A stretch of DNA of 64,000 nucleotides from Tsukamurella asaccharolytica. GTDB taxonomy: Bacteria; Actinomycetota; Actinomycetes; Mycobacteriales; Mycobacteriaceae. The stretch spans positions 102,449-166,448 of the forward strand of contig NZ_VIGW01000007.1 of the NCBI RefSeq assembly GCF_007858435.1. Direction: 5' to 3'. Under the pieces are notes generated by a model that saw only the letters and a program-made list of their open reading frames with translations, did no database searches and was not told the DNA's origin. The position numbers and the translations under genes are program-made. Below, one piece after another: positions 14,689-64,000 of this stretch; position 1 is the first letter of the stretch; each line of letters starts with the position of its first letter.

Positions 14689-14724
14689 TCAGGGTCGGTC
14701 TTCTTCCAAGGAGACCGGCCCTGA
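14689..14724 (+). terminator. hairpin terminator after tRNA-Gly
   Basis: TCAGGGTCGGTCT (14689-14701) pairs with AGACCGGCCCTGA (14712-14724): 13 pairs including one G-U wobble, around a 10-nt loop. It starts 8 nt after the tRNA and is followed by only a short T run (TTCG). Confidence 0.75.
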
Positions 14725-14891
14725 TTCGTACATCCTCCCAGGCGCCGCCGGCCTTGAGACGCTCCCCGGCTTGCGCGGCCCGATGCATCTTCAGGGCGTC
14801 CACCACCGTCGCCGGCATGATCCTGTCGCGTCCACGCGGCGATAGTGCCGCACCTCAATTCGGGCACGCGACCCTCGAAGTCGGTTGCCAA

Positions 14892-15050
14892 TTACCTCCG
14901 CGGCGGAACAACCTGACGATCCTGCGGCCCGGAGCCCCGACCGTTCTGCCCTCGCCGTGCAATCGCCACCACGACGACCACCACGGCGACGATCAGCGCA
15001 AGCATGCCGAGAATCATGATCCACGCCCAAGGCGAGTGAGTGATACCCAT
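14892..15050 (-). CDS. small single-pass membrane protein, 52 aa
   Basis: Short but well supported. ATG at 15050 is preceded by AAGGTGG at 4-5 nt. The protein has a short polar lead (GITHSPWAW), one strongly hydrophobic helix at about residues 11-30 (IMILGMLALIVAVVVVVVAI), then a basic, Gln/Pro-rich tail (RRGQNGRGSG to VVPPRR) and a TAA stop at 14892-14894. The positive tail predicts N-out, C-in topology. Function unknown. Small membrane proteins of this type are common in actinobacteria and are often missed by gene callers. Confidence 0.65.
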   Translation of the reverse strand: MGITHSPWAWIMILGMLALIVAVVVVVVAIARRGQNGRGSGPQDRQVVPPRR

Positions 15051-15202
15051 GGAGCCACCTTCGCACGACCGCGATGTGGTCGTAGTCCTTTCCGCGCGTA
15101 GCTGCTGTTCAACGAATCGAAATCGCCGAGAACCGACCCGAAGGCAGCGGCAGAGACTTCGGCGTTGACCTGCGGGGCCGGCGAGTTACATAGGGTCTTC
15201 TC

Positions 15203-16003
15203 ATGACCGAAGCACTCCTGATCGAGCGTGACGGCCCCGTCGTCACCTGGACCCTGAACGACCCCGCCGCGCGGAACCCCGTCTCCGACGAGACGATGAT
15301 CGAGGCCATCGAGCGCGCGGTGAACGAGGTGAACCACGACGACGAGGTGCGGGTGGCGATCCTCACGGGCGCCGGGTCGGCGTTCAGCTCGGGCGGCAAC
15401 GTCAAACACATGCGCGACAAGGAGGGCATGTTCGGCGGTACCGCCGCGCAGCAGCGGCAGGGCTACCGGCACGGTATCCAGCGCATCCCACGCGCGCTGT
15501 ACCACTGCGAGGTCCCGACGGTGGCGGCGGTGAACGGCCCGGCGATCGGCGCAGGATGCGACCTTGCCATGATGTGCGACCTGCGGGTCGCGTCCACGAA
15601 GGCGGTCTTCGCCGAGAGCTTCGTCAAGGTAGGGCTCATCCCGGGGGACGGCGGCGCGTGGCTGCTGCCGCGGATCGTCGGGATGGCCCGGGCGACGGAG
15701 ATGGCGCTCACGGGCGAGGCCGTCGACGCGGCGACCGCCCTCGACTGGGGCATGGTGTCCAGTGTCGTCGAGCCCGATGAACTGCTCGTCGCGGCCCGCG
15801 CGCTCGCGGACCGCGTGGCGGCGAATCCCCCACAGGCGCTGCGAATGACGAAGCGCCTGTTGCGGGAGGGCCAGCACCAGAGTCTCGAGGCGCTGCTCGA
15901 ACTCTCCGCCGCGATGCAGACCATCGCGCACTCCACGGCCGATCATCACGAGGCGGTCGCCGCGATGCTCGACAAGCGCCCGCCCCGGTTCACGGGGAAC
16001 TGA
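15203..16003 (+). CDS. crotonase/enoyl-CoA hydratase family protein
   Basis: A 266-residue acyl-CoA enzyme with the oxyanion-hole motifs GSAFSSGGNVKHM and NGPAIGAGCDLAMMCDLRVA. The two glutamates of classical hydratases are not conserved: the first is Asp (GAGCDLA) and the second position reads AESFVKVGLIPGDGG, as in isomerase-like members related to PaaG. It may therefore be an isomerase or epoxide-acting crotonase rather than a true hydratase. TAGGGT ends 6 nt before the ATG (leaderless). It lies 51 bp before the KstR-boxed flavoprotein gene. Confidence 0.85.
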   Translation: MTEALLIERDGPVVTWTLNDPAARNPVSDETMIEAIERAVNEVNHDDEVRVAILTGAGSAFSSGGNVKHMRDKEGMFGGTAAQQRQGYRHGIQRIPRALYHCEVPTVAAVNGPAIGAGCDLAMMCDLRVASTKAVFAESFVKVGLIPGDGGAWLLPRIVGMARATEMALTGEAVDAATALDWGMVSSVVEPDELLVAARALADRVAANPPQALRMTKRLLREGQHQSLEALLELSAAMQTIAHSTADHHEAVAAMLDKRPPRFTGN

Positions 16004-16031
16004 TCCCCCGCGGAACGCCGCCCGAGCCCGA

Positions 16032-16047
16032 TAGAACACGTTATAGT
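16032..16047 (+). promoter_or_regulatory. KstR-type operator overlapping a leaderless promoter
   Basis: TAGAACACGTTATA (16032-16045) is an exact match to the 14-bp mycobacterial KstR consensus TnnAACnnGTTnnA. It overlaps TATAGT (16042-16047), a -10-like hexamer that ends 7 nt before the ATG at 16055. A TetR-type repressor bound here would block the promoter, and release by a steroid CoA ester would derepress the flavoprotein gene. Confidence 0.65.
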
Positions 16048-16054
16048 TCGGCGC

Positions 16055-17674
16055 ATGATGCAGGAGTGGGACGCGACGGCCGACGTGGTAGTGGTCGGCT
16101 ACGGCGGCGCGGGGGTAGCAGCCGCACTGGCCGCCCGTGAGTCCGGCGCCGAGGTGCTCGCACTCGACCGTTACCTCGGCGGCGGCGCGACGAACCTCTC
16201 CGGCGGGATCGTCTACGCGGGCGGTAGAACCCGGATTCAGCGCGCCGCCGGCGTCGAGGACGACGTCGAGAACATGTTCTCCTATCTGCGCCTCGAGGTG
16301 GGCGACGCCGTGTCGGAGGAGACGCTGCGACAGTTCTGCGAGCAGTCCCCCGCCATGGTCGACTGGCTGATGGACCACGGCGTGCCGTTCGACCCGTCAC
16401 TCTGCCCGTTCAAGACGTCCTACCCCACCGACGATTACTACCTGTACTTCTCGGGCAGCGAGAACTCCGGCGGCTTTCGCGACGGTGCGGCACCTCGCCA
16501 GCGGGGCCACCGCGCCCACGGGCCGGGCGTCTCAGGCAAGAAGCTGTACGGCCCGCTCGCGGCGTCGGCGGCCGCCCGCGGCATCCGTGTGCGCACCGGC
16601 ACGAGGGCGACCGGGCTCGTTGTGGAGGACGGCCGGGTCGTGGGCGTCGAGGCGGTCACGATCGAGCACGCGCCGGCCGCCGTCCGCCGACGGTTCGCCG
16701 TGCTCACCCGGATCTCGGCGAAGCCGGGTGTCTACCACCAGGGCCTGCGCGCGACGATGCAGCGGCTCCTGGACCGGATCGAGCGTCGCCACGGCCGGCC
16801 GATCCGGATCCGCGCCCGCTCGGGCGTCGTCCTGAGTACCGGCGGCTTCATCGCCAACGGCGCGATGGTGCGCGAGCACGCACCGGGCTACCCCTGGGAG
16901 GAGGGCCTCCCGCTGGGCACCGCGGGCGACGACGGCAGCGGCATCGCACTGGGCCGCTCGGTGGGCGGCGCGACGGACCGGATGGACTCGCTGTCGAACT
17001 GGCGGTTCATCGCCCCGCCCAGCGCCTACCTCGGCGCGCTCGCGGTCGACGCGGACGGGCGGCGGATGGTCGACGAGTCCCGCTACGGCGCCGCGCTGGG
17101 CGCCGCCATCGCCGAGGCGCCCGGGCACCGCGCCTGGCTGCTGGTCGACGCCGACCTCGCGGCGCGGGCCCGCGGGCAGCTGGGCGAGCAGACGGTGTGG
17201 TTCCAGCGGCTCCAGCTCGAGCGGCTGCTCCGCATCGGCAGCGTCTCCGCACCCACCGTCGAGGAGGCCGCGCGGCGCGCCGGCGTCGACCCCTCCGGGC
17301 TGCGGCAGACCGTCGATGCGCACAACGACGCGATCGCGCAGGGCCGGCCGGATCCGCTCGGCAAGCCCGACGACCTGCGCACGCCCGCCCTGAAGGCACC
17401 GTTCACCCTGCTCGACATCTCGTTCACGAACCGGATGACCTATCCCATGCCGATGCTCACCCTGGGCGGCCTCGTCGTCGACGAGCGTTCCGGCGCGGTG
17501 CGCACCGGGGCGGGCGAGGTGGTCGCCGGGCTGTTCGCCGCCGGCCGCACCGCCGTCGGTATCTGCTCGAACTCGTACGTCAGCGGACTCTCCCTCGCCG
17601 ACTGCATCTTCTCCGGCCGGCGCGCCGGATCGCACGCAGCCGTGGCGCAGTCCAGCGTGCGCGACGAGGCCTAG
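16055..17674 (+). CDS. FAD-binding dehydrogenase, 3-ketosteroid dehydrogenase/fumarate reductase family
   Basis: A 539-residue FAD_binding_2 flavoprotein. The Rossmann dinucleotide motif VVVVGYGGAGVAAALAARES sits at the N-terminus, followed by GGGATNLSGG (FAD pyrophosphate region). The mid-protein has VVLSTGGFIANGAMVREHAPG and SGIALGRSVGGATDRMDSLS, and the C-terminal FAD loop is GRTAVGICSNSYVSGLSLAD. It resembles KstD-like and Rv0785-like proteins, but the C-terminal loop differs from canonical 3-ketosteroid-delta1-dehydrogenase, so the exact steroid or enoate substrate is open. A KstR-type box overlaps its promoter. Its TAG shares CTAG with the convergent XRE-cupin gene. Confidence 0.85.
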   Translation: MMQEWDATADVVVVGYGGAGVAAALAARESGAEVLALDRYLGGGATNLSGGIVYAGGRTRIQRAAGVEDDVENMFSYLRLEVGDAVSEETLRQFCEQSPAMVDWLMDHGVPFDPSLCPFKTSYPTDDYYLYFSGSENSGGFRDGAAPRQRGHRAHGPGVSGKKLYGPLAASAAARGIRVRTGTRATGLVVEDGRVVGVEAVTIEHAPAAVRRRFAVLTRISAKPGVYHQGLRATMQRLLDRIERRHGRPIRIRARSGVVLSTGGFIANGAMVREHAPGYPWEEGLPLGTAGDDGSGIALGRSVGGATDRMDSLSNWRFIAPPSAYLGALAVDADGRRMVDESRYGAALGAAIAEAPGHRAWLLVDADLAARARGQLGEQTVWFQRLQLERLLRIGSVSAPTVEEAARRAGVDPSGLRQTVDAHNDAIAQGRPDPLGKPDDLRTPALKAPFTLLDISFTNRMTYPMPMLTLGGLVVDERSGAVRTGAGEVVAGLFAAGRTAVGICSNSYVSGLSLADCIFSGRRAGSHAAVAQSSVRDEA

Positions 17675-18270
17675 CGACGCTCCCCGGCGGGCAGGGCCGG
17701 GGCCATCACCCAGAGAACCCGGGCACCGTCCGGTCCGGCCGCGAAGACGTGGGGCCGTACCGGGTCGAAGGTCATGGCGTCGCCGACGCCCAGCTCGACG
17801 CTCGGCTGCGGAGGGAAGGCGAGACGCAGCGTGCCGTGCTGCACCAGCACGAACGACACCTCCGCGGGCAGAGCGTAGGCATCGTCGCCGCTGCCTCCGC
17901 CCGGCGCGATGTGGCTGAGCAGCACCTGGACCCGCCGCTCCCCCGACGGCGTGAGCAGGAACTCGGAGAGACCCTCGCCGCCGAACCGGACCGACGGGTA
18001 GGCGTCTGCGCGGACGACCGAGCTCGCCGCGCCACCGTTGAAGAGGGAACCGACGGGCACGTCCAGCGCGTCGCACCAGCTCACCAACACCGCCATCGAC
18101 GGTGCCGCCAGGCCCCGCTCCACCTTCGAGAGATAGCCCTTGGTGACGCCGATGCGCTCAGCGACGTCCGCGAGCGTCAGGCGTCGAGCACTGCGCGCCG
18201 CCTTCAGCGCCGCTCCGACCTGATCCGGCACAGGCAGGTCCGCTCCCACTCCCGATGCAGCTACATCCAA
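17671..18270 (-). CDS. XRE-cupin transcriptional regulator of the arginine/amine operon
   Basis: A 199-residue regulator. The HTH is at about residues 17-70 (VGAALKAARSARRLTLADVA, GVTKGYLSKVERGLAAPSMA) and the cupin at about 115-190 (LPAEVSFVLVQHGTLRLAFP, then MTFDPVRPHVFAAGPDGARV), the architecture of PuuR-like amine-responsive regulators. The best start is TTG at 18270, downstream of GAAAGGA; the GTG at 18252 is an alternative. It is divergent from the ureohydrolase operon. A 7-3-7 palindrome lies just upstream of its start, so autoregulation and operon control are likely. Confidence 0.85.
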   Translation of the reverse strand: MDVAASGVGADLPVPDQVGAALKAARSARRLTLADVAERIGVTKGYLSKVERGLAAPSMAVLVSWCDALDVPVGSLFNGGAASSVVRADAYPSVRFGGEGLSEFLLTPSGERRVQVLLSHIAPGGGSGDDAYALPAEVSFVLVQHGTLRLAFPPQPSVELGVGDAMTFDPVRPHVFAAGPDGARVLWVMAPALPAGERR

Positions 18271-18275
18271 CAGAT

Positions 18276-18326
18276 GTTTCCTTTCAGGAAACTCAAGTTG
18301 ACAAGTCGGTCGATGTCCCACACTAT
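18276..18326 (+). promoter_or_regulatory. divergent operator and sigma-A-type promoter of the ureohydrolase operon
   Basis: GTTTCCT-TTC-AGGAAAC (18276-18292) is a perfect 7-bp inverted repeat with a 3-nt spacer. Next comes TTGACA (18298-18303), 17 bp, then CACTAT (18321-18326): a full-consensus -35 with a weak -10. The ureohydrolase start is 44 nt further, with GAGAGG about 8 nt before it, so this message has a leader. The operator touches the -35 and also the regulator's own start. Confidence 0.65.
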
Positions 18327-18369
18327 GTGATCCGCCCCACAGACGCAGCTCCTGCGAGAGGATCCCTTC

Positions 18370-19350
18370 GTGTCCGACGAAATCCAGCGCCCCGCTCAGC
18401 CTCGCGGCCCGGTGGATGCGAGCCTCGTGCCCCGCTACTGCGGGCCGGCGACCTTCGCCCGCCTGCCCCGCCTCGACGAGGTCGACGGCGCCGCCGTCGC
18501 GGTCCTCGGGATCCCCTTCGACACCGGGGTCAGCTACCGTCCCGGCGCGCGGTTCGGGCCCGGCCACATCCGGGCGTCGTCGAAGCTGCTGCGCCCCTAC
18601 AACCCCGCCCTCGACGTCTCGCCGTTCGCCGTGCACCAGGTCGCCGATGCGGGCGACCTCGCGGTCAACCCGTTCGACATCGAGGAGGCGCTCGGCACCG
18701 TGCAGGCTGAGGTGTCCCGACTGCGTTCGAGCGGGTCGAAGGTGCTCACCCTCGGCGGCGATCACACGCTCGCGCTGCCCATCCTGCGCGCCGTCGCCGC
18801 CGATCGCGGTCCCGTCGCCGTGCTGCACTTCGACGCGCACCTCGACACCTGGGACACCTACTTCGGCGCCCCGTACACGCACGGCACCCCGTTCCGGCGG
18901 GCCAGCGAGGAAGGGCTGATCGACCTCGAGCGCTCGATGCACATCGGCATCCGCGGCCCGCTCTACGGCGAGCAGGATCTCGCCGCCGACGGCGTGCTCG
19001 GCTTCCAGGTGATCCGGTCCGACGACTACGAGAACGACGGGCTCGCGAGCGTGATCGAGCGCATGCGCCGTCGCCTCGCCGGGCCCGACGGTGCCGGCGG
19101 CCCCGTCTACGTCTCCGTCGACATCGACGTACTCGACCCGGCCCACGCGCCCGGCACCGGCACCCCCGAGGCCGGCGGCATGACCAGCCGCGAGCTCCTC
19201 AACACCATCCGCGCCCTGGTCGGCACGGACGTGGTGGGCGCCGACGTCGTCGAGGTCGCACCGCCCTACGACCACGCCGAGCTGACCGGCATCGCGGCGG
19301 CCCACGTGGCCTACGAGTTGCTCTCGGTGCTCGCGGTGAACGCCCGGTGA
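18370..19350 (+). CDS. ureohydrolase (agmatinase family; guanidinobutyrase proposed)
   Basis: A 326-residue Mn2+-dependent guanidino hydrolase releasing urea. Metal and catalytic motifs: [28 protein letters not shown], then [20 protein letters not shown]. Generic annotation would be agmatinase. The next three genes (permease, amidase and 2-monooxygenase of the DavA/DavB type) suggest instead 4-guanidinobutyrate to GABA plus urea. Start GTG at 18370 with GAGAGG 8 nt upstream. The stop overlaps the permease start (GTGA). Family is certain; substrate is inference. Confidence 0.9.
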
Positions 19351-51760: not shown

Positions 51761-53434
51761 TCAGTCGCGCGTGAGCTTGCGGTGCGTCACCGCGTGCGGG
51801 CGGGCCGCCTCGGCGCCGAGGCGCTCGATCTTGTTCGCCTCGTAGGCCTCGAAGTTGCCCTCGAACCAGAACCACTGCCCCTCGGAGACGTTGCCCTCCC
51901 ACGCCAGGATGTGCGTGCAGGTCCGGTCGAGGAACCAGCGATCGTGGGAGATCACCACGGCGCAGCCGGGGAACTGCTCGAGCGCGTTCTCCAGGCTGGA
52001 GAGCGTCTCCACGTCCAGGTCGTTGGTCGGCTCGTCGAGGAGGATCAGGTTGCCGCCCTCCTTGAGCGTCAGCGCCAGGTTGAGCCGGTTGCGCTCACCG
52101 CCGGAGAGCACCTCCGCGGGCTTCTGCTGGTCCGGCCCCTTGAAACCGAACGCGCTGACGTAGGCGCGGGCCGGCATCTCGTTCTGGCCGACCGTGATGT
52201 AGTCGAGCCCGTCCGAGACCACCTGGAAGACGGACTTCTTGGGGTCGATGTTGGCGCGGTTCTGATCGACGTAGCTGAGCTTGACCGTCTCGCCCACCTT
52301 GACCTCGCCCGAGTCCGGGCTCTCCAGTCCGACGATGGTCTTGAACAGGGTGGTCTTGCCGACGCCGTTGGGGCCGATCACGCCGACGATGCCGTTGCGC
52401 GGCAGGGTGAAGGACAGGTCCTTGATCAGGACCCGGCCGTCGAAACCCTTGTCGAGGTTCGCGACCTCGACCACGACGTTGCCCAGGCGGGGCGGCGTGG
52501 GGATCTGGATCTCCTCGAAGTCGAGCTTGCGGTGCTTCTCGGCTTCGGCCGCCATCTCGTCGTAGCGCTCCAGGCGCGCCTTGTTCTTGGTCTGCCGGGC
52601 CTTCGCGCCCGAGCGGACCCACGCGAGCTCCTCCTTGAGGCGCTTCTGCAGCTTCTGGTCCTTCTTGCCCTGGACCTCGAGACGCTCGGCCTTCTTCTCC
52701 AGGTAGGTCGAGTAGTTGCCCTCGTAGCCGTGCAGCTTGCCGCGCTCGACCTCGCAGATCCACTGCGCGACGTGATCCAGGAAGTACCGGTCGTGGGTCA
52801 CGGCCAGCACGGCGCCCGGGTAGCTCGCGAGATGCTGCTCGAGCCACAGCACCGACTCGGCATCGAGGTGGTTGGTGGGCTCGTCGAGGAGCAGGAGGTC
52901 GGGCTTGCTCAGCAGCAGCTTGCACAGCGCCACGCGGCGCTTCTCACCACCGGAGAGGTTCTCCACCGAGGAGTCGCCCGGCGGGCAGCGCAGGGCGTCC
53001 ATCGCCTGCTCGATCTGCGAGTCGACGTCCCAGGCGTCGACGGCGTCCAGCTGCTCCTGCAGCTTGCCCATCTCCTCCATGAGCTCGTCGCTGTAGTCGG
53101 TGGCCATGAGCTCCGCGACCTCGTTGTAGCGACGCAGGTTGACCATGGTCTCGCCGAGGCCGTCCTCGACATTCTCCTTGACGGTCTTGGACTCGTCGAG
53201 CTTCGGCTCCTGCATCAAGATGCCGACGGTGGCCTCCGGGTCCAGGAACGCCTCGCCGTTCGACGGCTGATCCAGACCGGCCATGATCTTGAGGATCGAC
53301 GACTTGCCCGCGCCGTTGGGACCGACCACGCCGATCTTCGCGCCCGGGTAGAACGACATCGTCACATCATCGAGAATGACCTTGTCGCCGTGCGCCTTGC
53401 GCACCTTCTTCATCGTGTATATGAACTCAGCCAC
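51761..53434 (-). CDS. ettA: energy-dependent translational throttle protein EttA
   Basis: A 557-residue ABC-F ATPase that binds the ribosomal E site and gates entry into elongation according to ATP/ADP. Two ATPase domains: Walker A GPNGAGKSS (about residue 40) and GPNGVGKTT (about 365), signatures LSGGEKRRVALCKLLL and LSGGERNRLNLALTLK, Walker B LLLLDEPTNHLDAES and LILLDEPTNDLDVET. The arm (EMGKLQEQLDAVDAWDVDSQ) and the linker with KARLERYDEMAAEAEKHRK define EttA. GTG start at 53434 gives the usual N-terminus AEFIYTMKKVRKAHGDKVIL. Ortholog of Rv2477c; last conserved gene before the accessory cluster. Confidence 0.96.
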   Translation of the reverse strand: MAEFIYTMKKVRKAHGDKVILDDVTMSFYPGAKIGVVGPNGAGKSSILKIMAGLDQPSNGEAFLDPEATVGILMQEPKLDESKTVKENVEDGLGETMVNLRRYNEVAELMATDYSDELMEEMGKLQEQLDAVDAWDVDSQIEQAMDALRCPPGDSSVENLSGGEKRRVALCKLLLSKPDLLLLDEPTNHLDAESVLWLEQHLASYPGAVLAVTHDRYFLDHVAQWICEVERGKLHGYEGNYSTYLEKKAERLEVQGKKDQKLQKRLKEELAWVRSGAKARQTKNKARLERYDEMAAEAEKHRKLDFEEIQIPTPPRLGNVVVEVANLDKGFDGRVLIKDLSFTLPRNGIVGVIGPNGVGKTTLFKTIVGLESPDSGEVKVGETVKLSYVDQNRANIDPKKSVFQVVSDGLDYITVGQNEMPARAYVSAFGFKGPDQQKPAEVLSGGERNRLNLALTLKEGGNLILLDEPTNDLDVETLSSLENALEQFPGCAVVISHDRWFLDRTCTHILAWEGNVSEGQWFWFEGNFEAYEANKIERLGAEAARPHAVTHRKLTRD

Positions 53435-53596
53435 AGTCCCTGCCTGCTCTCCCGCGAAGACGACCCACCGGTGTACCGGGGGCAAACGACTCCAGCCTAC
53501 CGACCGGCGTCCGCCGCCGGAGACGGGCCGGGTCCGCGACCCCCGCGGTTCCACTCGTTCGCCAACAGAACGACTGGCGCGTAACAAGCGGGCCTT

Positions 53597-53672: not shown

Positions 53673-56600
53673 ATGGCCGTGAAGGATGGTCACATACAGG
53701 ACCGCGGGCGAGGAGCAGAGCACCGCGAGCCCATCGCCGTCGTCGGGATCGGATGCAGACTGCCCGGCGGAGTGCGCTCGGCCGACGACTTCTGGCAGTT
53801 GCTCGAAGACGGGCGCGACGCCATCGTCGACATCCCCGCCGACCGCTGGAGCACGGACCGGTACTACGAACCCGAGCGGGCGGCCGGCAAGAGTCGTGTG
53901 CGCCGCGGCGGATTCCTCACCGATCCGGTCGACGAGTTCGATCCGGCGTTCTTCGGAATCTCTCCCGTCGAGGCGAACGCGATGGACCCGCAGCAGCGCC
54001 TGCTGCTCGAGGTGGCGTGGGAGTCCTTCGAGGACGCCGGGCTGCGCGCCGAGGCCATCGAGCACACGCGGACCGCGGTCTTCACCGGGGGTTTCACGCT
54101 CGACTACAGCCAAATGCAGTTCGCCACCTCCGCCGCGGAGCCACCCACCGTCGCCGCGCACACCGCGACCGGGGTGGTCATGACGATGCTCTCCAACCGC
54201 ATCTCGCACGCCTTCGACCTGCTCGGACCCAGCATGTCCGTCGACACGGCCTGCTCGTCATCGCTGGTGGCGATCCATCTGGCCTGCCAGGCGCTCTGGA
54301 ACGGCGAGAGTGACCTGGCGATCGCCGGCGGCGTCAACCTTATGCTCAGCCCGAACTTCACCGTCGCCGCGTCGACCGGCGGCTTCCTGTCCCCGACCAG
54401 CACCTCGCGCGCCTTCGACGCGGCCGCCAACGGCTACGTGCGCGGCGAAGGAGCGGCGCTCGTCGTGCTCAAACCCCTCGCGCAGGCCCGCGCCGACGGC
54501 GACCGGATCTACGCGACGGTGCTCGGTACGGCTGTCAGCCAGGACGGCCGTACCAACGGCATCACGGTCCCGAACGGCGACAGCCAGAAACTGGCCATCG
54601 AGGCCGCGCTCGCGAGCGCCGGCATCGCTGCCGGCACCGTCGACTACGTGGAGGCACACGGCACCGGCACCCCCGTCGGTGATCCGATCGAGGCCAACGC
54701 CATCGGTGAGGCCTATCGCGCCGGCCGTCCAGCGGATCGCCCGCTGGTCATCGGTTCGGTCAAGACGAACCTCGGCCATCTCGAGGCCGCGGCGGGCGTC
54801 GTCGGCTTCATCAAGTCCGCACTTGCGCTCGGCCACCGCCGGGTGCCGCGGCACCTGCACCTGGAGACGCTCAACCCGGCCATCGACCTCGATGATTTGC
54901 GGATCCGGATCGCCACTGAGCCCACCGCGCTCCGCTCCGACGGCCCGCTCCGCGCGGGCGTCAACTCGTTCGGCTTCGGCGGCACCAACGCGCACGCGAT
55001 TCTCGAGTCCGCCCCCGTCGACGTGCCCGCCGCGCCCGCTCCGCCCGCAGCCGCCGTGCGCGACGGGATCGCGTCCGTGCTTCCGCTCGCGGCGCGCAGC
55101 GAAGCGGCGCTGGCCGAACTCGCGGGCGCCTACGCCGGACTCGCGGAGTCGGACGGCGCCGCCGCCCTGGCCGGCGCGCTTGCACACCGGCGCAGCGCGC
55201 ACCGTCCGGCACGACTCGCCGTGATCGCCGCGGCCGACGCCGACGCCGCGGAGGCGCTGCGGGCCGCCGCCGACGGCGCCCCGCACCAGTGCCTGCGGTC
55301 CGGCTCGGCGCTCGCCGACGCCCGCCCGCTCGCCTTCGTCTACACCGGGATGGGACCGCAGTGGTGGGCCATGGCCCGCGGCCTCCTGCAGCACAACGCC
55401 GTCTTCCGCGCGGCGATCGACCGCTGCGACGAGGCGATCGCGGCGCTCGTGGGCTGGTCTCTCTCCTCCGAACTCCTTGCCGCGGAGGCGGATTCCCGCA
55501 TGTCCGAGTCCGTGGTGGCGCAGATCGCGAACTTCGGCGTGCAATACGCCTTGACCCGGCTGTGGGAGTCCTTCGGCGTCCGACCGGACCTCATCGTCGG
55601 GCACAGTGCCGGGGAGGTCGCCGCGGCCCTCGAAGCCGGCGCCCTGGAGTTCGAGGACGCGATCACCGTGATCGTGCACCGCGCCCGCATCCAGCACACA
55701 GCGAGTGGAGGCGGCCGCCTGCTCGCCGTCGCACTCGGCGCGACCGCCGCCGCCGAGCTGCCCGAGGTCGTGCGCGGCGAGGTCGAACTGGCCGCGATCA
55801 ACAGCCCCGACTCGGTCGCGCTCGTGGGATCGACCCTCGTCCTCGAGTCGATCGCGGAGCGGCTCGCCGCCGACGGCGTTTTCGCGCGGCTCGTCCCGGG
55901 CGATGTCCCCTACCACAGCCGCGCGATGGATCCGCTCGAAGCCGAGGTCCGCTCGGCGCTCGCCGACCTCGCCCCCGGCGCACCGTCGATCCCGCTCTAC
56001 TCGACGGTGACCGGCGCCCGCGTCCCGGCGGACGGCTCCCAGCCGCACGATGCCGAGTACTGGTGGCGCAACATCCGCCGCCCCGTGCTGTTCGGCGACG
56101 CCACGGACGCGCTGCTGTCCGACGGCGCGACGACCTTCCTCGAGATCGGCCCCACCGCGGTGCTGGGCCGGGCCATCGCGGAGGCCGCCGCCGCGCGCGG
56201 GGACTCGGTGACGACGACCGCGTCGCTGCACCGGGACGGCGAGGACGCCGTGTCGTTCGCCGCGGCGCTCGCCGACCTGTGGGTGCGCGGCGTCGACGTC
56301 GACTTCTCCCCGCTCGCGCTCCGCGCGCCGATGCGGCCCCTGCCTGCCTACCCGTGGCAGACCGGCCAGTACTGGTCCGAGAGCGGCGCCGGCCGGCGGG
56401 AGCGCCTCGCCGAGACCGTCGAGCCCTATCTGGGCGACCGGTCCGACGGTGCCCTGCCCGCGTGGCGGCGGCTGCTGGACGGCACGGCGCCGCGGTCGCT
56501 CGCGGATCACGTGGTGCACGGCGCGACGCTGTTCCCGGGCGCCGGCTATCTCGAGATCGCCGCGGAGGTCGCGCGGGACGAGTACGGGGCCGCGGCCTGC

Positions 56601-59156
56601 ACGCTGCTCGACGTCGCGTTCGAAACCGCTCTCGTGCACGGCGGCGGAGGGACCTACCTCCTCGACACCAGCCTCGACGCCGCTACGGGCCGGATCGCGA
56701 TCCACGGCAAGGTGCCGGGCGCCGGACGCTGGGCGCGACACGCGACCGCCGTCCTGCGGCCCGCGCCGTCCGTGGCGCCTCGCATCGAGCTGGCGCCCAT
56801 CGCGGGCGCGGCGGTCGCCGAAGACACGCTCTACGAGGGTTTCCGGGACGCGGGCTTCGCCTACGGGCCCGCGTACAGCCTCCTGCACGACGTGACCGTC
56901 GGCGACGGTCGCGCGACCGCTCGGATCCGCGCGGTCTCGCCGGAGCCCGTCGCGGAGCGCGCCCCGATCTTGGAGCCGAGCGTGCTCGACGCCGCCTTCC
57001 AGCTGCTGTTGCCGCTGGACTTCGAGCGCGCCGAGGACGCCAAGCTGATCCCCGTCGGCGTCGACCGCGTGGTGATCCACGGGCGGCCCGAGGGCCCCGT
57101 CGTCGCGCGGGCCACGGCCGGGACCTCGCCCGATCCGACCGAGATCCGCGGCGACGTGGTGCTCGCCGGCGAGGACGGGCGCGTCTTCGCCGAGGTGGAG
57201 GGCTTCACGGTCCGGATTCTCGACGACGGCGCCACCGCCCCGCAGCGGGTGGGCACCGACTGGGTGTACGAGCAGGCGTGGGAGCCGCAGCCCGTCACCG
57301 ACGCCGAGCGTGCCTCCGCCGAGGGCACCTGGCTGCTCCTCGCGGACCGCACGGGTCTCGCGGAACGCCTGGCGGGGCGGCTCTCCGCCGCCGGCGGCAC
57401 CCCGGTACTCCTGAGCGCGGGCGCGGGTTCCGACGCCGTCGCGCCCGACGACCGGGCCGCCTTGGCCGCCGCGCTCGACCGGATCATTCCGGATGCGGGG
57501 CTCCGAGGCATCGTCCACCTGTGGTCGCTCGACGCCTCCCCCGACGCGCCGGACCCCCTGCGCTGGGCCGCGCACGACGCCGTTCTCTCGGTGGTGCACC
57601 TCGCGGCCGAGCTGGACCAGCGCGGCCTCGCGGCACCCACCTTCCTCGTCACGGACGGGGCACAGCCCGTCACGGGCATCTCGGAGACGGGCCTCCTGCA
57701 GTCCTCGCTGCCCGGCATCGGCCGGGTCCTGCACCATGAGCTGAGCCGGCTGCAGACCCGCCTCGTAGACCTCGATCCGAGGGACCGGGACGGCAGCGCC
57801 GCGATGCTGCTCGACGAGCTCACTGTGACGAACACCGACGAGGACCAGGTGGCCTTCCGCGACGGCACGCGCCTCGTCGCGCGCCTGTATCCGTCGGCCC
57901 GGTCCGGGGGTCGGATCCCCGCCCGGATGCGTCCCGACGGTGCCTATCTCGTCACCGGCGGTCTCGGCGCGCTCGGCCGGCTCGTGCTGGTCGCGCTCGC
58001 CGAACGCGGCGCCGGCCACCTGATCGTGACCAGCCGGTCGGGCCTCCCGCCGCGGGCGGAGTGGGACGCCCTCACCGACGACGCGCAGCGCGACGCCGTC
58101 GCCGCGGTGCGGGCCGCGGAGGCGTCGGGCGCGTCGGTGCAGGTCGTGGCCGTGGACGTGACGGACGCCCGCGCGCTCACCGAGACCCTCGCGCGGCTGC
58201 ACGCAGCCGGCGTCCCCGCCCTGCGCGGCGTGATCCACTCGGCCGGCGCCGTCGACGACCAGATCCTGGTCCGGATGACGCAGGAGCAGGTCGAGCGGGT
58301 GGTCCGGCCCAAGGTGCTCGGCGGCTGGGCCCTGCACCAGGCGACCGCCGGCGAGCCCCTGGACTTCTTCACCCTGTTCTCCTCGATCTCCGCCGTGATC
58401 CCCTCGCCCGGACAGGGCAACTACGCCGCCGGGAACGCCTTCCTCGACGCGCTCGCCCACTACCGCCGGGCGCAGGGCCTGCCGGCCCTGTCGATCAACT
58501 GGGGCCCGTGGGACGCAGGCATGATCGCCAGCCTGGGACTGCGCGAGCTCTACGGGCAGCGCGGGATCGACCTCATCGACCCGGAGACCGGCATGTCGCT
58601 CCTCGCCGAGCTCCTGGGATCGAGCGAGGTGCAACAGGGCGTGGTCTCCGCGCACTGGCCCACGGTGATCGAGAACTACGCGCTCACCCCGGTCCTCGTG
58701 GCCCACCTGGGCCGCGGGGAGGACGACGGGGACGACGACGGCGAGTCGATCCTCGAACGACTCGGCGCCGCCGCGCCGGCGGATCGGGCGCCCATCGCCA
58801 CCGACGGGGTGCGGCTCACCGTCTCCCGTGTGCTGCGGATGCCCGAGGAGCACATCCCCGACGACGAGCCGCTCGGCCGCCTCGGCGTGGATTCGATGCT
58901 CGCCACCGAACTGCGGATCCGGGTGGAGCAGCAGTTCGGCGCCGCGCCGTCGATCGCCTTCCTCCTCGACGGCGCCTCCGTGGCGACCATCGCCGCCGAA
59001 CTCCTCGCCACGCTCGACATCCCGTCGGGCGACGGCGAACCCGACGCCGAGGTCGAGGACCTCGCCGCGTTGCTCGCGGACCTGGACGACGACGCCGTCG
59101 CCACCCTGCTCGCCCAGTCCGAGACCACCGAACCGAACAGCGGAGGCCCCCGATGA
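53673..59156 (+). CDS. type I polyketide synthase, KS-AT-DH-KR-ACP
   Basis: An 1827-residue single-module PKS. KS 18-445: Cys194 (VDTACSSSLVA), His329 (VEAHGTGTP), His369 (KTNLGHL). AT about 553-870: Ser645 in VGHSAGEVA; the specificity region reads VPYHSRAMD, neither the malonyl HAFH nor the methylmalonyl YASH pattern. DH about 930-1185: His946 in HVVHGATLFP and Asp1106 in DAAFQ, so it looks active. KR about 1422-1612: GGLGALG, LFSSISAVIPSPGQGNYAAG with Ser and Tyr1584, B-type VDD. ACP Ser1741 in LGVDSML. No ER, methyltransferase, loading or thioesterase domain. The predicted result is a two-carbon-extended 2-enoyl chain. AGGGGG precedes the ATG; the stop overlaps the NRPS ATG. Confidence 0.95.
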   Translation: MAVKDGHIQDRGRGAEHREPIAVVGIGCRLPGGVRSADDFWQLLEDGRDAIVDIPADRWSTDRYYEPERAAGKSRVRRGGFLTDPVDEFDPAFFGISPVEANAMDPQQRLLLEVAWESFEDAGLRAEAIEHTRTAVFTGGFTLDYSQMQFATSAAEPPTVAAHTATGVVMTMLSNRISHAFDLLGPSMSVDTACSSSLVAIHLACQALWNGESDLAIAGGVNLMLSPNFTVAASTGGFLSPTSTSRAFDAAANGYVRGEGAALVVLKPLAQARADGDRIYATVLGTAVSQDGRTNGITVPNGDSQKLAIEAALASAGIAAGTVDYVEAHGTGTPVGDPIEANAIGEAYRAGRPADRPLVIGSVKTNLGHLEAAAGVVGFIKSALALGHRRVPRHLHLETLNPAIDLDDLRIRIATEPTALRSDGPLRAGVNSFGFGGTNAHAILESAPVDVPAAPAPPAAAVRDGIASVLPLAARSEAALAELAGAYAGLAESDGAAALAGALAHRRSAHRPARLAVIAAADADAAEALRAAADGAPHQCLRSGSALADARPLAFVYTGMGPQWWAMARGLLQHNAVFRAAIDRCDEAIAALVGWSLSSELLAAEADSRMSESVVAQIANFGVQYALTRLWESFGVRPDLIVGHSAGEVAAALEAGALEFEDAITVIVHRARIQHTASGGGRLLAVALGATAAAELPEVVRGEVELAAINSPDSVALVGSTLVLESIAERLAADGVFARLVPGDVPYHSRAMDPLEAEVRSALADLAPGAPSIPLYSTVTGARVPADGSQPHDAEYWWRNIRRPVLFGDATDALLSDGATTFLEIGPTAVLGRAIAEAAAARGDSVTTTASLHRDGEDAVSFAAALADLWVRGVDVDFSPLALRAPMRPLPAYPWQTGQYWSESGAGRRERLAETVEPYLGDRSDGALPAWRRLLDGTAPRSLADHVVHGATLFPGAGYLEIAAEVARDEYGAAACTLLDVAFETALVHGGGGTYLLDTSLDAATGRIAIHGKVPGAGRWARHATAVLRPAPSVAPRIELAPIAGAAVAEDTLYEGFRDAGFAYGPAYSLLHDVTVGDGRATARIRAVSPEPVAERAPILEPSVLDAAFQLLLPLDFERAEDAKLIPVGVDRVVIHGRPEGPVVARATAGTSPDPTEIRGDVVLAGEDGRVFAEVEGFTVRILDDGATAPQRVGTDWVYEQAWEPQPVTDAERASAEGTWLLLADRTGLAERLAGRLSAAGGTPVLLSAGAGSDAVAPDDRAALAAALDRIIPDAGLRGIVHLWSLDASPDAPDPLRWAAHDAVLSVVHLAAELDQRGLAAPTFLVTDGAQPVTGISETGLLQSSLPGIGRVLHHELSRLQTRLVDLDPRDRDGSAAMLLDELTVTNTDEDQVAFRDGTRLVARLYPSARSGGRIPARMRPDGAYLVTGGLGALGRLVLVALAERGAGHLIVTSRSGLPPRAEWDALTDDAQRDAVAAVRAAEASGASVQVVAVDVTDARALTETLARLHAAGVPALRGVIHSAGAVDDQILVRMTQEQVERVVRPKVLGGWALHQATAGEPLDFFTLFSSISAVIPSPGQGNYAAGNAFLDALAHYRRAQGLPALSINWGPWDAGMIASLGLRELYGQRGIDLIDPETGMSLLAELLGSSEVQQGVVSAHWPTVIENYALTPVLVAHLGRGEDDGDDDGESILERLGAAAPADRAPIATDGVRLTVSRVLRMPEEHIPDDEPLGRLGVDSMLATELRIRVEQQFGAAPSIAFLLDGASVATIAAELLATLDIPSGDGEPDAEVEDLAALLADLDDDAVATLLAQSETTEPNSGGPR

Positions 59157-62100
59157 CCGAGATCGAAGACCGCCTCGCGGCCCTCAGTCCCGCCCAGCGC
59201 CGGGCCCTGCTGGCACGCCTGGGCAAGGGCCCGTCGGCCGGCCCCGCTACACAGCCGATCACGCCGCGAGTGCGCGAGGGCGAGGCCATCAGACTCTCCG
59301 CCACCCAGGAGAACATGTGGTTCCTGGAGCAGTTCCATCCCGGCACGAGCATGCACGTCATGTCCGGCGTCGCGCGGCTGCCGGTCGACGTTCCCCGCGA
59401 GGTCTTCACCGACTGCCTCGCCGAGGTGATCGAGCGGCACTCGGTGCTGCGCACCCGGTTCGGCATCGAGGACGGCGAGCCGGTCGCGCGGATCGCCCCC
59501 GCCGAACGGCCGGAGGTCGCGTTCCTCGACGGGGTAGACGAGGCAACGATGTGGGACCGGTTCCGCGAGGAAGCGCGCACGCCGTTCGACATCGCGCGGG
59601 ATCCCCTGCTGCGGGCGACGCTCGCGCGCAGCACCTCCGGCGGCACGTGGGTGCAGATCACGCTGCACCACATGGTCGCCGACGGCTACTCGACCGGCAT
59701 TCTCTTCGCCGAGCTCGGGCGCCTCGCGACCGGCCGGCTGGTCGGCCGGCTGCAGCGACTCCCGGACGTCCCGTTCCAGTACGCCGACGTGGCGCTGTGG
59801 GAACGCGAGCGAACGGAGGCGGACGCCGACGCCACCGACATCGCCTACTGGACCGAACGGCTGGACGGCGCACCCTCCGCGCTGACCCTGCCGACGGACC
59901 ACCCGCGGCCGTCGCGGCAGAGCTACCGGGGCCGCCGCACTGAGTTCGCCCTCAGCGCGGAGCGGGCGGCGGCGGTCCGCACGTTCAGCGCCGAGCACGG
60001 CGTGACCCCGTTCGTCACGGTGCTCAGCGCGTACGCGACGGTTCTGTCCCGGTGGTCGGCGCAGGACGGCGTCGTGATCGGCGTTCCCGTCGCGCAGCGC
60101 TCCGTACCGGGCACCGAGCAGGTCATCGGCCCGTTCCTCAACACACTCGCCCTCCCGGTGACCTTCGGCGAGGGCGAGACCGTCAAGGGCCTGCTCGCGC
60201 GCGTGAACGCCGAGGTCCGCGAGGGCTTCCGGCACCAGGACGCGCGCTTCGACCGAGTGTTGTCGGCGCTCGACGTCGGTCGCGATCCGGCGCGCCCGCC
60301 GCTCTTCCAGGCCATCCTCAACATGCAGGAGGATCGCAGCGCGCCCGAGATGCAATTGCGGGACCTGGACAACGGCTGCGCCAAGTTCGAGGTGCTCCTG
60401 GGGATCACCACCACCCCCACCACGATGACGGGCACCCTGGACGTCGCGGCCGACCTGTTCGACCAGGCGACGGCCGACGCGCTCATCGACGGCTTCGTCG
60501 CGGTGCTCGACGCGCTGACCGGACCCGATGCGCGGGACGCACAGGAGATCGCGACCCTCCCGCTCTCCACCGCCCCGCTCGCGATCGAACCCCCGGTCGC
60601 GCAGCCGCCGACCACGTCGCTGGAGGCGTACGCCCTCGCCGCGGCGGCCGGTTCCGCCGAACGCACCGCGATCGTCACCGGAACGGAGCGGATCACTTAC
60701 GGCGAGTTGGACGCCCGGGTCGGCCGCCTCGCCGCGCGGATCGCCGAGCGCGTCGACGCGCCGCCGCAGACGCCGGTCGGGCTGCTCCTGCCGCGGTCGG
60801 CGGACGTCATCGTCGCGATGCTGGCAACGCTGCGGGCCGGCTACTCCTTCGTGCCGCTCGACCCCGCGTACCCGGCGGAGCGTCTCGAGTTCATCTGCGC
60901 CGACGCGGGCATCCCGGCCCTCGTCACCACCGCCGAGCATCTCGCCGAGGTGCCGCGACTCGACCTGCCGTGGATCGACGTCGCCGACGCGCCGGCCGGG
61001 CCCGCCCCGGCACCGTCGGGCGACGACCCCGCGACCCGCACGGCGTACCTCCTCTACACCTCCGGTTCCACGGGACGTCCCAAGGGCGTGCGGGTCTCGC
61101 ACCGCAACGTCATCACCTTCCTCGAGGCGATGCGCGCCGAGCCGGGGATGGCACCGTCGGACACCCTGCTGGCCGTCACGAGCCCGTCCTTCGACATCGC
61201 GATCCTCGAGCTGCTGCTCCCGCTCGCCGCCGGGGCTCGCGTCGTCATCGCCGACGGTGACGACGCCCGCGACGGCGACCGGCTCGCGGCGCTGCTCGCC
61301 GAGCACGCGGTGACCGTCATGCAGGCCACCCCCACCACGTGGCACCTGCTGCTCGACGCGGGCTGGTCCGGCACGCGCGGGCTGCGCGCGCTGTGCGGCG
61401 GCGAGGCGATGCCCGCGGTGCTCGCGGGCCGGCTCCTCGCCGGCGCCGACGAGGTGTGGAACATGTACGGCCCCACCGAGACCACGATCTGGTCGACGGT
61501 GCACCGGGTCACCGCCGCCGACGTCGCCGCGGGCGCGATCCCGATCGGGCACCCGATCCGGGGCACCGGAATCGTGGTCGCCGACGCCCACGCCGTGCCC
61601 GTCCCCGACGGCGTCTTCGGTGAGCTCTGCATCATCGGTGACGGCGTGACCCTGGGGTACCACGAACGCCCCGAGCTCACCGCCGAACGATTCGTGGACC
61701 TGGCCGGCCCGACGCCGGTGCGGGCGTACCGCACCGGGGATCTGGTGCGCCGGTTCCGCGACGGTCGGATCGAATTCGGTGGCCGGATGGACACCCAGGT
61801 GAAGGTGCGCGGCTTCCGCGTCGAGCTGGGCGAGATCGAGAGCGCCCTCGAGACCGCACTGCCCGGCGTCCGCGCGATCGCCGCGGTCAATGCCGAGGGG
61901 ACCGCGGTCACGGCCTACCTCGAGTGCGCGGCCGAGGAGCTCGGCGATACGGGCGCCCTGCTCGCGAGCCTGCGGGAGACCCTGCCGCCGTACATGGTCC
62001 CCAGCGCCTTCGCGGTCGTCGACGCCTTCCCGCTCACGCCGAACCGCAAGATCGACCGCAAAGCCCTCGGCGCCCGCGGCGGTGCGCCGGTGGCCCTGGC

Positions 62101-63589
62101 CACCGCGGGCGGCGCCGAGCACATCGCCGCCCGCACCGACCTGGAGCGCGACCTCGCCGCGATCTGGACCGACCTACTGGCCTTGCAGACGGCGCCCGGC
62201 GTCCGCGACGACTTCTTCCTCCTCGGCGGGCACTCGCTGCTCGCGACGAAGCTGGTGTTCCGGGTCCGGGAGAAGCTCGGCCGCGTGGTGCCGCTGCCGG
62301 CGCTGTTCGCGGGCGAGCTCACCATCGAACGGCTCGCGGCGATCCTCGAGCAGGGCGGCGCCGGCTTCGAGAACCCGTTGGTCCTCGCCGACGAGGTCGT
62401 CCTCCCCGACCACATCCGGCCCGCGCCGGGTGCGCCCGTCCGCAGCGCGACCGACCCGCGGCACCTGTTCGTCACGGGCGCGACGGGGTTCGTCGGCGCC
62501 TTCCTCCTCGCAGAGCTGCTGACCACGTCGTCGGCGACCATGCACTGCCTGGTCCGCGCAGGGTCGCCCGCTGAGGGCTTCGACCGGATCCGCGCGACGA
62601 TGCGCGACTACGGGATCTGGGACGATGCCCTCGCCGCCCGGATCGTCGCCGTGCCCGGCGATCTGACGCGTCCGCGGCTGGGCCTCACCGACGCCGCCTG
62701 GGCGGATCTGGCCGCCACCGCAGACGGCATCGTCCACTGCGGCGCCGACGTGAACTTCCTCCGGCCGTACCCGACCCTGAAGTCCGCCAACGTCGACGGC
62801 ACGGTGCAGGTGCTCGCCCTCGCGTGTGACGGGCCCGTCAAGCCCGTGCACTTCGTCTCGACCACCTACGTCTTCTCCCGGTTCTCCTACCCGCAGGACA
62901 CCGTCTTCGCCGAGGACGACCGCCACCCGGTCCAGGACCCGCGGTTCACCTTCGGCTACACCCAGTCCAAGTGGGTCGGCGAGCAACTCGTCTTCGAGGC
63001 GCGCTCGCGGGGCGTCCCGACGTACGTCTACCGCACCGGCCGCGTCGCGGGGCACAGCCGGACCGGCGCGTGCCAGCGGTCGGACTTCCTGTGGCAGACG
63101 ATCCGGCTCGGCGTCGCCCTGGGGGCGGCCCCGACGATGGACATGTCGACCGACATCACGCCCGTCGACTACGTCGTCGGCGCGATCGCCCGCCTTGCCG
63201 GGCAGGACGAGCTCGCGGGACGCACCTTCCACGTCGTCTCCCCCGAGACCGTGGCGATACCGGACCTGGTGCGGTGGATGTCCGACTTCGGTTACGCCGG
63301 TGAGCAGCTGCCGTTCGGACAGTGGTGCGAGCGCGCAGCGGACCTGGCCGAGCGCGAGGGCGATGAGACCGCCGCCGCGCTCGCCCCGTTCCTGTCGGCG
63401 ACGCCGCTGGACAACATGCCCGACGCGACCTTCGACGACGCCAACGTGCGAGAGGGCCTCGCGGGCAGCGGCATCGTCTGCCCACCGATCGACGGCGCGC
63501 TGCTCCGCCGCTACTTCGAGTGGTTCATCGAGTGCGGCTACCTCCCGGCGCCGCCGTCCCTCGACCTCCCTGAGAGTGCGGCCTCATGA
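59153..63589 (+). CDS. nonribosomal peptide synthetase, C-A-PCP-reductase (glycine predicted)
   Basis: A 1478-residue NRPS. C domain 40-450 with LHHMVADGYST. A domain about 484-950: YLLYTSGSTGRPKGVR (A3), NMYGPTETTIW (A5), YRTGDLVRRF (A7), VKVRGFRVELGEIE (A8), LTPNRKIDRK (A10). The specificity residues read D-I-L-Q-C-G-M-I-W-K, two changes from the glycine code DILQLGLIWK. PCP Ser1028 in FLLGGHSLLATKL. Terminal thioester reductase 1100-1478: VTGATGFVGAFLLAEL, then YTQSKWVGEQL (Tyr-x-x-x-Lys). Release should give an aldehyde or alcohol. The ATG overlaps the PKS stop (ATGA), so the ACP hands directly to this C domain. The 3' end overlaps the next ORF. Confidence 0.95.
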   Translation: MTEIEDRLAALSPAQRRALLARLGKGPSAGPATQPITPRVREGEAIRLSATQENMWFLEQFHPGTSMHVMSGVARLPVDVPREVFTDCLAEVIERHSVLRTRFGIEDGEPVARIAPAERPEVAFLDGVDEATMWDRFREEARTPFDIARDPLLRATLARSTSGGTWVQITLHHMVADGYSTGILFAELGRLATGRLVGRLQRLPDVPFQYADVALWERERTEADADATDIAYWTERLDGAPSALTLPTDHPRPSRQSYRGRRTEFALSAERAAAVRTFSAEHGVTPFVTVLSAYATVLSRWSAQDGVVIGVPVAQRSVPGTEQVIGPFLNTLALPVTFGEGETVKGLLARVNAEVREGFRHQDARFDRVLSALDVGRDPARPPLFQAILNMQEDRSAPEMQLRDLDNGCAKFEVLLGITTTPTTMTGTLDVAADLFDQATADALIDGFVAVLDALTGPDARDAQEIATLPLSTAPLAIEPPVAQPPTTSLEAYALAAAAGSAERTAIVTGTERITYGELDARVGRLAARIAERVDAPPQTPVGLLLPRSADVIVAMLATLRAGYSFVPLDPAYPAERLEFICADAGIPALVTTAEHLAEVPRLDLPWIDVADAPAGPAPAPSGDDPATRTAYLLYTSGSTGRPKGVRVSHRNVITFLEAMRAEPGMAPSDTLLAVTSPSFDIAILELLLPLAAGARVVIADGDDARDGDRLAALLAEHAVTVMQATPTTWHLLLDAGWSGTRGLRALCGGEAMPAVLAGRLLAGADEVWNMYGPTETTIWSTVHRVTAADVAAGAIPIGHPIRGTGIVVADAHAVPVPDGVFGELCIIGDGVTLGYHERPELTAERFVDLAGPTPVRAYRTGDLVRRFRDGRIEFGGRMDTQVKVRGFRVELGEIESALETALPGVRAIAAVNAEGTAVTAYLECAAEELGDTGALLASLRETLPPYMVPSAFAVVDAFPLTPNRKIDRKALGARGGAPVALATAGGAEHIAARTDLERDLAAIWTDLLALQTAPGVRDDFFLLGGHSLLATKLVFRVREKLGRVVPLPALFAGELTIERLAAILEQGGAGFENPLVLADEVVLPDHIRPAPGAPVRSATDPRHLFVTGATGFVGAFLLAELLTTSSATMHCLVRAGSPAEGFDRIRATMRDYGIWDDALAARIVAVPGDLTRPRLGLTDAAWADLAATADGIVHCGADVNFLRPYPTLKSANVDGTVQVLALACDGPVKPVHFVSTTYVFSRFSYPQDTVFAEDDRHPVQDPRFTFGYTQSKWVGEQLVFEARSRGVPTYVYRTGRVAGHSRTGACQRSDFLWQTIRLGVALGAAPTMDMSTDITPVDYVVGAIARLAGQDELAGRTFHVVSPETVAIPDLVRWMSDFGYAGEQLPFGQWCERAADLAEREGDETAAALAPFLSATPLDNMPDATFDDANVREGLAGSGIVCPPIDGALLRRYFEWFIECGYLPAPPSLDLPESAAS

Positions 63590-64000
63590 CCGACACCAAC
63601 CCGCGCGGGCCCGTGGAGCGGACGACCAGCACGCTCCGCGAGCGCCGCCGCAGGACTCCCGCGCCGCCCAGCAGTCCGGTCACGCTCCCCGTGCGCACAC
63701 GGGCATCACGCCCGTCGGTCCCCTCCTCGCGCCCGCTGCCCGTGTCGCGCCCGGCGCTCCCCGCGGCCCGCCCGACGCCGTCGGCGTTGCGGGTAGCACC
63801 GCCCGCCGCCCCGCCGCAGCAGGTACGGCCGGTCCCGTCCGCGGCCCCGCAGGTCGCGGCCGGCCCACAGGCCCCGGCCGGCCCGCAGCCCTCGGCCCGC
63901 CCCTCGGCACCGTCTGCACCGACCGCCCGGACCTCGACCCCTCAGGCGCCCCAGCGCCCACCGTCGCCGCCGTCACGACCGGTCGCGCCCGTGCTTCCAC
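63586..64000 (+). CDS. proline-rich ORF coupled to the NRPS, 3' end beyond the window
   Basis: ATG at 63586 overlaps the NRPS TGA, and the frame stays open to the last base (138 codons). The sequence starts TDTNPRGPVERTTSTLRERR and is then Pro/Ala/Ser/Arg-rich (VTLPVRTRASRPSVPSSRPL, APPAAPPQQVRPVPSAAPQV). It is disordered and basic, with no signal peptide or helix seen so far. It is probably the N-terminal linker of a larger protein: a membrane exporter, a second catalytic protein, or a partner of the synthetase. The fixed coupling suggests it belongs to the same pathway. Confidence 0.7.
   Translation, partial: MTDTNPRGPVERTTSTLRERRRRTPAPPSSPVTLPVRTRASRPSVPSSRPLPVSRPALPAARPTPSALRVAPPAAPPQQVRPVPSAAPQVAAGPQAPAGPQPSARPSAPSAPTARTSTPQAPQRPPSPPSRPVAPVLP

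Follow-up and report, generated by a model that had tools for sequence, protein, structure and literature searches.

What does a single polyketide synthase (PKS) module make when it is coupled to a single nonribosomal peptide synthetase (NRPS) module that ends in a reductase? The question is raised by the last part of the window, the 64,000-nucleotide stretch of Tsukamurella asaccharolytica analysed here (contig C74, 102449-166448, of genome G000), the end of which coincides with the end of the contig. The original prediction was that an acyl chain already present is lengthened once by two carbons, condensed with glycine and reductively released, in a pathway without a characterised counterpart. 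We believe that the locus is best explained as a four-gene secondary-metabolite operon, PKS-NRPS-ABC ATPase-permease, and that the first step of this prediction is the one most in need of revision.

Gene order across the end of the contig

Pfam and NCBIfam profiles place the two synthases on the forward strand just where they had been predicted, with a type I PKS of 1827 aa (P0001, 53673..59156) followed by an NRPS of 1478 aa (P0002, 59153..63589), and the proposed domain orders, KS-AT-DH-KR-ACP and C-A-PCP-R, are both recovered. The PKS is a single module without a loading domain, again as proposed, and no TE or ER was found among the Pfam/NCBIfam matches shown for the two proteins. The stop-start overlaps are also as described: ATGA joins the PKS to the NRPS at 59153-59156, and the NRPS to the third gene at 63586-63589.

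The third gene (63586..64000, forward strand) had been taken for a proline-rich ORF. It is indeed chained by overlap, and is proline-rich over 138 residues, until the contig ends, but it is not a separate small gene: it is the start of an ABC-transporter ATPase gene, encoding the N-terminal tail. The last 151 bases of C74 are 93% identical to the end of contig C80, in a register that preserves the reading frame, and on the C80 side the ORF continues into a DrrA-like ABC ATPase (≈454 aa, counted across both contigs), followed by an ABC-2 permease and then by a nitrate-reductase/sulfite-reductase-type gene. Reading beyond 64 kb, a check that had been proposed at the outset, adds in this way an exporter pair to the two synthases. 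An identity of 93% instead of 100% leaves a slight doubt about the join, which is supported by the ATPase-permease order found downstream of the NRPS in all eight loci readable past it. The contigs of two further genomes (G001 and G013) likewise stop ~340-360 bases past the NRPS, and the proline-coding stretch is 81% GC, so this stretch may be hard to assemble.

The tight packing extends to the transporter genes. In at least six of seven relatives the NRPS and ATPase genes share four bases at their stop-start junction (ATG in five, GTG in one), the ATPase and permease genes do so in 7/7, and from those starts the ATPases are 411 to 470 aa long. ABC_tran and ABC2_membrane score above their Pfam cut-offs, and the NCBIfam drrA and drrB models match below theirs.

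A single-module PKS

All five PKS domains, on the forward strand, were located by profile and motif scan: KS (53727..55007; DTACSSS, EAHGTGT, NLGHLE), AT (55335..56297; GHSAG, and VPYH at the HAFH/YASH position), DH (56457..57233; HVVHGATLFP, DAAFQ), KR (57939..58514; GGLGALG, LFSSIS...NYAAGN) and ACP (58809..59000; VDSM). The protein is 75-88% identical across 10/10 genus loci, in pieces in L046. A motif script was run on ten Tsukamurella copies of each enzyme (our own and L037-L045) and on the related locus of a MAG (L050), and some motifs were rechecked in six copies (our own, L041-L044 and L050). The KS, ACP, C, A, PCP and R patterns are present in 11/11 copies. The KR Ser-Tyr spacing pattern, which was too strict, missed all 11, and both motifs are present in 6/6 on recheck; equally over-strict were the HxAGxxDD-type KR pattern, which gave no hit in L042, L043 and L044, and the pattern for the AT arginine, which gave none in L043. 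The DH pattern matched the wrong place in L041, corrected on recheck, and was missed in L050, where His and Pro are kept and Asp replaces Gly.

The AT domain deserves separate mention. Its active-site motif is GHSAG (GHSSG in L040), and alignment places VPYH (VPFH in L050) where DEBS has YASH; L044, in which the HAFH/YASH pattern was missed, also has VPYH on recheck. An aromatic third residue in this motif suggests malonyl as a rule, and we read the domain as malonyl-like on this suggestion; VPYH is neither HAFH nor YASH, which counts against the reading. At the junction of the two synthases, short stretches at the PKS C-terminus and the NRPS N-terminus are conserved in Tsukamurella and similar in L050, and appear to resemble a docking pair.

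A clade that includes iterative synthases

Among the top 12 of 1288 matching records in a tblastn search of the PKS against a plasmid collection, T. tyrosinosolvens comes first at 88%, followed by Streptomyces NBC_01237 (42%), Eleftheria terrae (41%) and Streptomyces NBC_01471 (41%). The last three, the best full-length relatives outside Tsukamurella among those 12 of 1288, are PTM synthases of the order KS-AT-DH-KR-ACP-C-A-PCP-TE, surrounded by a fatty-acid/sterol hydroxylase, FAD oxidoreductases, and an ADH or P450. Such surroundings characterise PTM clusters, according to the accessible part of PMC8399814, and the single-module PKSs of these clusters work iteratively and yield polyenes (PMC8399814 and PMC11724479, in the parts accessible). 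Like our locus, the PTM/PoTeM iPKS-NRPSs (SkoA and IkaA, for example) pass from one KS-AT-DH-KR-ACP module to one C-A-PCP module with no loading module. Unlike the fused C-A(Orn)-PCP-TE of the PTM proteins, the NRPS here is a separate protein with a Gly-like code, an R domain and no TE; the operon also has an ABC exporter, and lacks the FAD oxidoreductases, ADH, sterol desaturase or P450 of PTM clusters.

FastTree trees group Tsukamurella, L050 and PTM with a support of 0.978 for the KS (68 tips, with two PTM KSs, as a frame break interrupts the third) and of 0.872 for the AT (64 tips, three PTM). A class search of 197 genomes with the AT-DH part gave matches at 1e-65 in 25 genomes, our own included, from which seven single-module PKS loci were fetched. 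The combined KS+AT tree (IQ-TREE, 55 tips, 745 columns, LG+F+G4; supports given as aLRT/UFBoot from the unrooted file) includes 8/10 Tsukamurella copies; Pks13 and other loci without a KS-AT pair were dropped. In this tree Tsukamurella is united at 100/100 and joined to L050 at 99.8/100, within a 19-member clade of single-module PKSs (98.6/97) that also holds L181, two KS-AT-DH-ER-KR proteins, three loci of FAD-PKS-ABC type and four PTM synthases. Going outward, Deinococcus joins at 97/99, and Lewinella and one MAG module at 98.3/99, while the five other KS-ATs of our own genome (four on contig C31, one on C74) fall outside the 19-member clade. Inside it, the nodes are weak: Tsukamurella and L050 group with L181 at 89.3/37, and the next node has 25.9/29. 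The sister-group relation to PTM, to which the separate FastTree trees had pointed, was not upheld once further single-module PKSs were added; as to membership of the PTM lineage, the domain order matches and the wider clade is shared, and the Tsukamurella PKS does not lie inside the PTM group. Within the 19-member clade, the PTM type is, to our knowledge, the only one that has been characterised. L181 itself (genome G190) carries a PKS of the same clade and architecture followed, as here, by an overlapping NRPS gene; its NRPS differs from ours in that C, A and PCP domains each occur twice and R is absent, and a thioesterase encoded by a gene of its own and an MFS gene lie close by.

On the strength of the KS+AT tree, with its supported clade that includes iterative PTM synthases, the single extension of the original prediction is no longer favoured. 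Phylogeny favours an iterative PKS and does not prove it, and we put the chances at about one half; as the single-module clade stays supported, the values of the unrooted file leave this estimate unchanged. In the solved-structure list for the KS, a PKS and then the modular PikA1 and CurL rank above MAS, which speaks against iteration.

The chief alternative is that a ready-made fatty acyl chain is extended once to a 2-enoyl chain, joined to glycine and released as an N-(2-enoyl)-glycinal or -glycinol lipid. The single module without a loading domain would suit it, although PTM-type iterative synthases lack a loading module too and the absence fits either reading; the Pks2 and Pks13 profile models match, below their cut-offs, and the host order makes lipid-primed PKS products. 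With the PKS grouping among single-module PKSs that include the iterative PTM synthases, and with neither an acyl-AMP ligase nor a thioesterase annotated in the T. tyrosinosolvens stretch (24 features), we regard this alternative as unlikely.

A glycine-like code and a terminal reductase

The four NRPS domains, likewise on the forward strand and found by profile and motif scan, are C (59288..60529; HHMVADG), A (60641..62050), PCP (62150..62344) and R (62465..63541). Glycine, as originally predicted, is most likely the substrate of the A domain, the code of which, DILQCGMIWK, agrees at 9/10 positions with DILQLGMIWK, reported for four Gly domains in the accessible part of a survey (PMC12283262). 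The sole difference is Cys in place of Leu at position 299, where, in the same part of that survey, Gly-type codes carry Leu/Met, and this speaks against the call. Code positions were set by alignment to LgrA with GrsA numbering, and position 517 was assumed to be the usual Lys of NRKIDR. LgrA is the best solved match of the A domain, and one of its two A domains accepts glycine; it was dropped as a glycine-code reference because the codes of both domains differ from DILQCGMIWK.

Reductive release, also predicted, is supported by the R domain. It scores 324 bits on TIGR01746 (cut-off 213) and retains Thr-Tyr-Lys and the nucleotide motif (GATGFVG, VSTT, YTQSK), as in reductive-release C-A-PCP-R modules of the MxaA and MxcG type; its closest solved relatives are MxaA (E 4e-81) and the R domain of a type I PKS. 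MxaA, the terminal NRPS of myxalamid, has the reductase end domain in common with our NRPS, and a 2015 paper on it reportedly concerns primary alcohols. Myxalamid ends in alaninol, with a chain from a multimodular PKS, in contrast to the glycine and the single PKS module here. Mycobacterial NRPS off-loading reductases are said, in work by Chhabra from 2012, to carry out a [2+2]e- reduction, the terminal R reducing twice; these belong to long peptide synthetases. The accessible part of PMC12783407 has R domains releasing either an aldehyde, by two-electron reduction, or an alcohol, by four-electron reduction.

The C domain is of another lineage than that of PTM: in FastTree trees it clusters with L050 and not with the PTM C domains, and for this reason the NRPS half seems to have a different origin from the PKS half.

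Proposed pathway

Taking as observed the gene order, domain content, motifs, selection, cassette boundaries and single-module clade membership reported here, we infer every step beyond domain recognition as follows. Malonyl-CoA, decarboxylated, or another small starter would prime the PKS, in which KS, AT, DH and KR would act in every round, with no ER, and so build a conjugated polyenoyl chain on the ACP. The chain would be handed to the NRPS, probably via the docking pair, and condensed by the C domain with glycyl-PCP, the glycine being that predicted from the A-domain code. Given its intact motifs and its relation to MxaA, the R domain with NADPH may then release an N-polyenoyl-glycinal after one reduction or, after two, an N-polyenoyl-2-aminoethanol, that is, an N-acylethanolamine, which is what the N-acyl-glycinol of the original prediction is chemically. 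The ABC ATPase/permease pair would export the product. Three phosphopantetheinyl-transferase family matches lie elsewhere in the genome. Taken as a whole, from iterative PKS to export, we consider that this scheme stands an even chance of being right. The biosynthesis of myxochromides also combines an iterative PKS with separate NRPS proteins, for a longer peptide and TE release. Their polyene chains are methyl-ended (PMC10204066, in its accessible part), like the chain proposed here.

A narrower version, which we put forward tentatively and think rather doubtful, would make the operon a dedicated polyenoyl-ethanolamide line: a polyene from malonyl-CoA, glycine, four-electron release and export, giving an anandamide-like lipid without a phospholipid precursor.

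Alternatively, the aldehyde could cyclise after release, for example from N-acyl-aminoacetaldehyde to a 2-alkenyl-oxazole or other small heterocycle, so that neither free aldehyde nor free alcohol accumulates. The chemistry of N-acyl-aminoacetaldehyde allows this, and the intact R motifs are compatible with it; with a cassette of PKS, NRPS, ABC ATPase and permease only, and no cyclising enzyme in it, we hold such an ending to be distinctly unlikely.

Relatives outside the genus

In a family search of 121 genomes (our own and at least six other Tsukamurella included, with no more than four candidates scored in each), matches beyond Tsukamurella are 35-40% identical, and a class search of 246 genomes with the R domain, our own included, gave one further match at 1e-80 (41%). 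A contig scan with two short peptide patterns, a query likely to miss some copies, found, among the best 80 of at least 537 confirmed matches, the MAG at 51%, along with T. conjunctivitidis, T. sputi, T. ocularis and Tsukamurella sp. PLM1. The MAG locus, L050, has a PKS 52% and an NRPS 51% identical to ours, likewise ATGA-coupled, and an A-domain code that differs from DILQCGMIWK only by Val at position 330. Downstream of its NRPS, in place of the ABC pair, the stretch 14509-18652 encodes a quinone-oxidoreductase-like protein, which could act as a trans enoyl reductase, together with an MFS exporter and a free-standing A domain. These additions would be at home in a pathway in which a PKS of few passes takes an unusual starter and the product is modified by enzymes encoded elsewhere; they are absent from the Tsukamurella cassette, for which we consider such a pathway improbable.

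At three loci from as many genomes in another genus of the same family (L178, L179 and L180; g30), an ABC ATPase comes after a KS-AT-DH-KR PKS that belongs to the clade of ours, and no NRPS was found. L178 and L179 are confirmed to have an ABC-2 permease as well, and the PKS of L179 is preceded by a halogenase/lycopene-cyclase-like FAD protein; the three loci possibly represent an undescribed PKS export operon. A common origin of our ABC pair with the FAD-PKS-ABC operon of L179 was considered and is not supported: the ATPase is 43% identical over 202 aa, and the permeases of L178 and L179 have no significant match to the cassette permease. A plasmid of Deinococcus sp. QL22 (L146) encodes consecutively a PPTase, a PKS with an ER-like part, an NRPS with a nitroreductase domain, a thioester-reductase protein and an aminotransferase.

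The view that no characterised pathway has this set of genes holds in the searches made, which gave no characterised match, and in the literature searched we found no paper on the operon, nor on an NRPS route to acyl-glycinals or N-acylethanolamines. Judged from sequence, it is a conserved operon without a characterised counterpart found, an unusual recombination of known parts.

Distribution, flanks and selection

The NRPS occurs in 11 of the 16 Tsukamurella genomes searched, full-length in ten (our own included) and in pieces in G009, and the full-length proteins of the other genomes are 79-91% identical to ours. No NRPS orthologue was found in the other five (G003, G007, G010, G011 and G014; G011 is a draft of 890 contigs). 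PKS and NRPS are present together in 10/10 fetched genus loci, in pieces in L046, and ABC ATPase, permease and the nitrate-reductase gene NasC in 8/10, the other two loci stopping at a contig end.

On the left, ettA (51761..53437, reverse strand) adjoins the PKS in our genome, as originally noted; it is found by tblastn at 96-98% in 6/10 genus stretches and is annotated as ettA in T. tyrosinosolvens NCTC13231. Two of the four stretches without it (L037 and L043) are too short upstream; the others, L044 and L045, lack it over 4.7 and 9.2 kb of upstream DNA, so the place next to the cassette is not always taken by ettA. In three genomes without the NRPS (G014, G003 and G007) ettA adjoins NasC, with ~0.3, 1.6 and 1.6 kb between them, an empty site from which we conclude that PKS-NRPS-ABC-permease behaves as one present-or-absent cassette; in G010, NasC is not in the stretch taken, and in G011 the contig ends.

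The flanks vary in other ways. Between ettA and the PKS, T. tyrosinosolvens has integrase-bearing DNA with a phage capsid gene (L139 4500-14390), and in T. sputi and T. conjunctivitidis the PKS is closely preceded by an integrase ~40% identical to that one (L044 10917-11969; L045 7724-8776). Perhaps the gap is a repeated integration site; no tRNA was found in the three integrase-bearing loci. On the right, the gap between permease and nitrate reductase is 1.9-2.0 kb in L037 and L041 and 0.1-0.3 kb in six other loci measured, and in T. tyrosinosolvens it holds an LLM-class flavin oxidoreductase and a fibronectin-III protein (L139 27160-28856). The product of the right flank gene itself (L013 3586-7491) is a fusion of a molybdopterin nitrate reductase with a flavodoxin/FAD/NAD module. 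The record of T. tyrosinosolvens NCTC13231 carries a plasmid label, yet holds glutamate dehydrogenase, ettA and nirB genes, and its PKS matches in two pieces (L139 15001-20480), of which only the 3' part is annotated.

All four genes are under purifying selection in the five relatives compared, with dN/dS of 0.10-0.23 in 20/20 comparisons (Nei-Gojobori, four genes by five relatives; conserved part only for the ATPase). That the cassette is decaying or silent, as the fragmented PKS and NRPS of Tsukamurella sp. PLM1 (genome rated 83% complete), the two-piece PKS of T. tyrosinosolvens NCTC13231 and the absence of an NRPS orthologue in 5/16 genomes might suggest, is very improbable in view of these dN/dS values and of the motifs kept in the copies scanned.

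Implications

The single-module PKS-NRPS logic of PTM ends in thioesterase release onto ornithine; in our operon, the PKS belongs to the same wider clade, and its partners are a glycine module, a terminal R domain and an ABC exporter. With four genes only, the operon is small enough for direct testing by expression. Human sputum is the source of at least one Tsukamurella strain. If the product is the alcohol, the cassette would give bacteria a route to N-acylethanolamines, which serve as signalling lipids in animals.
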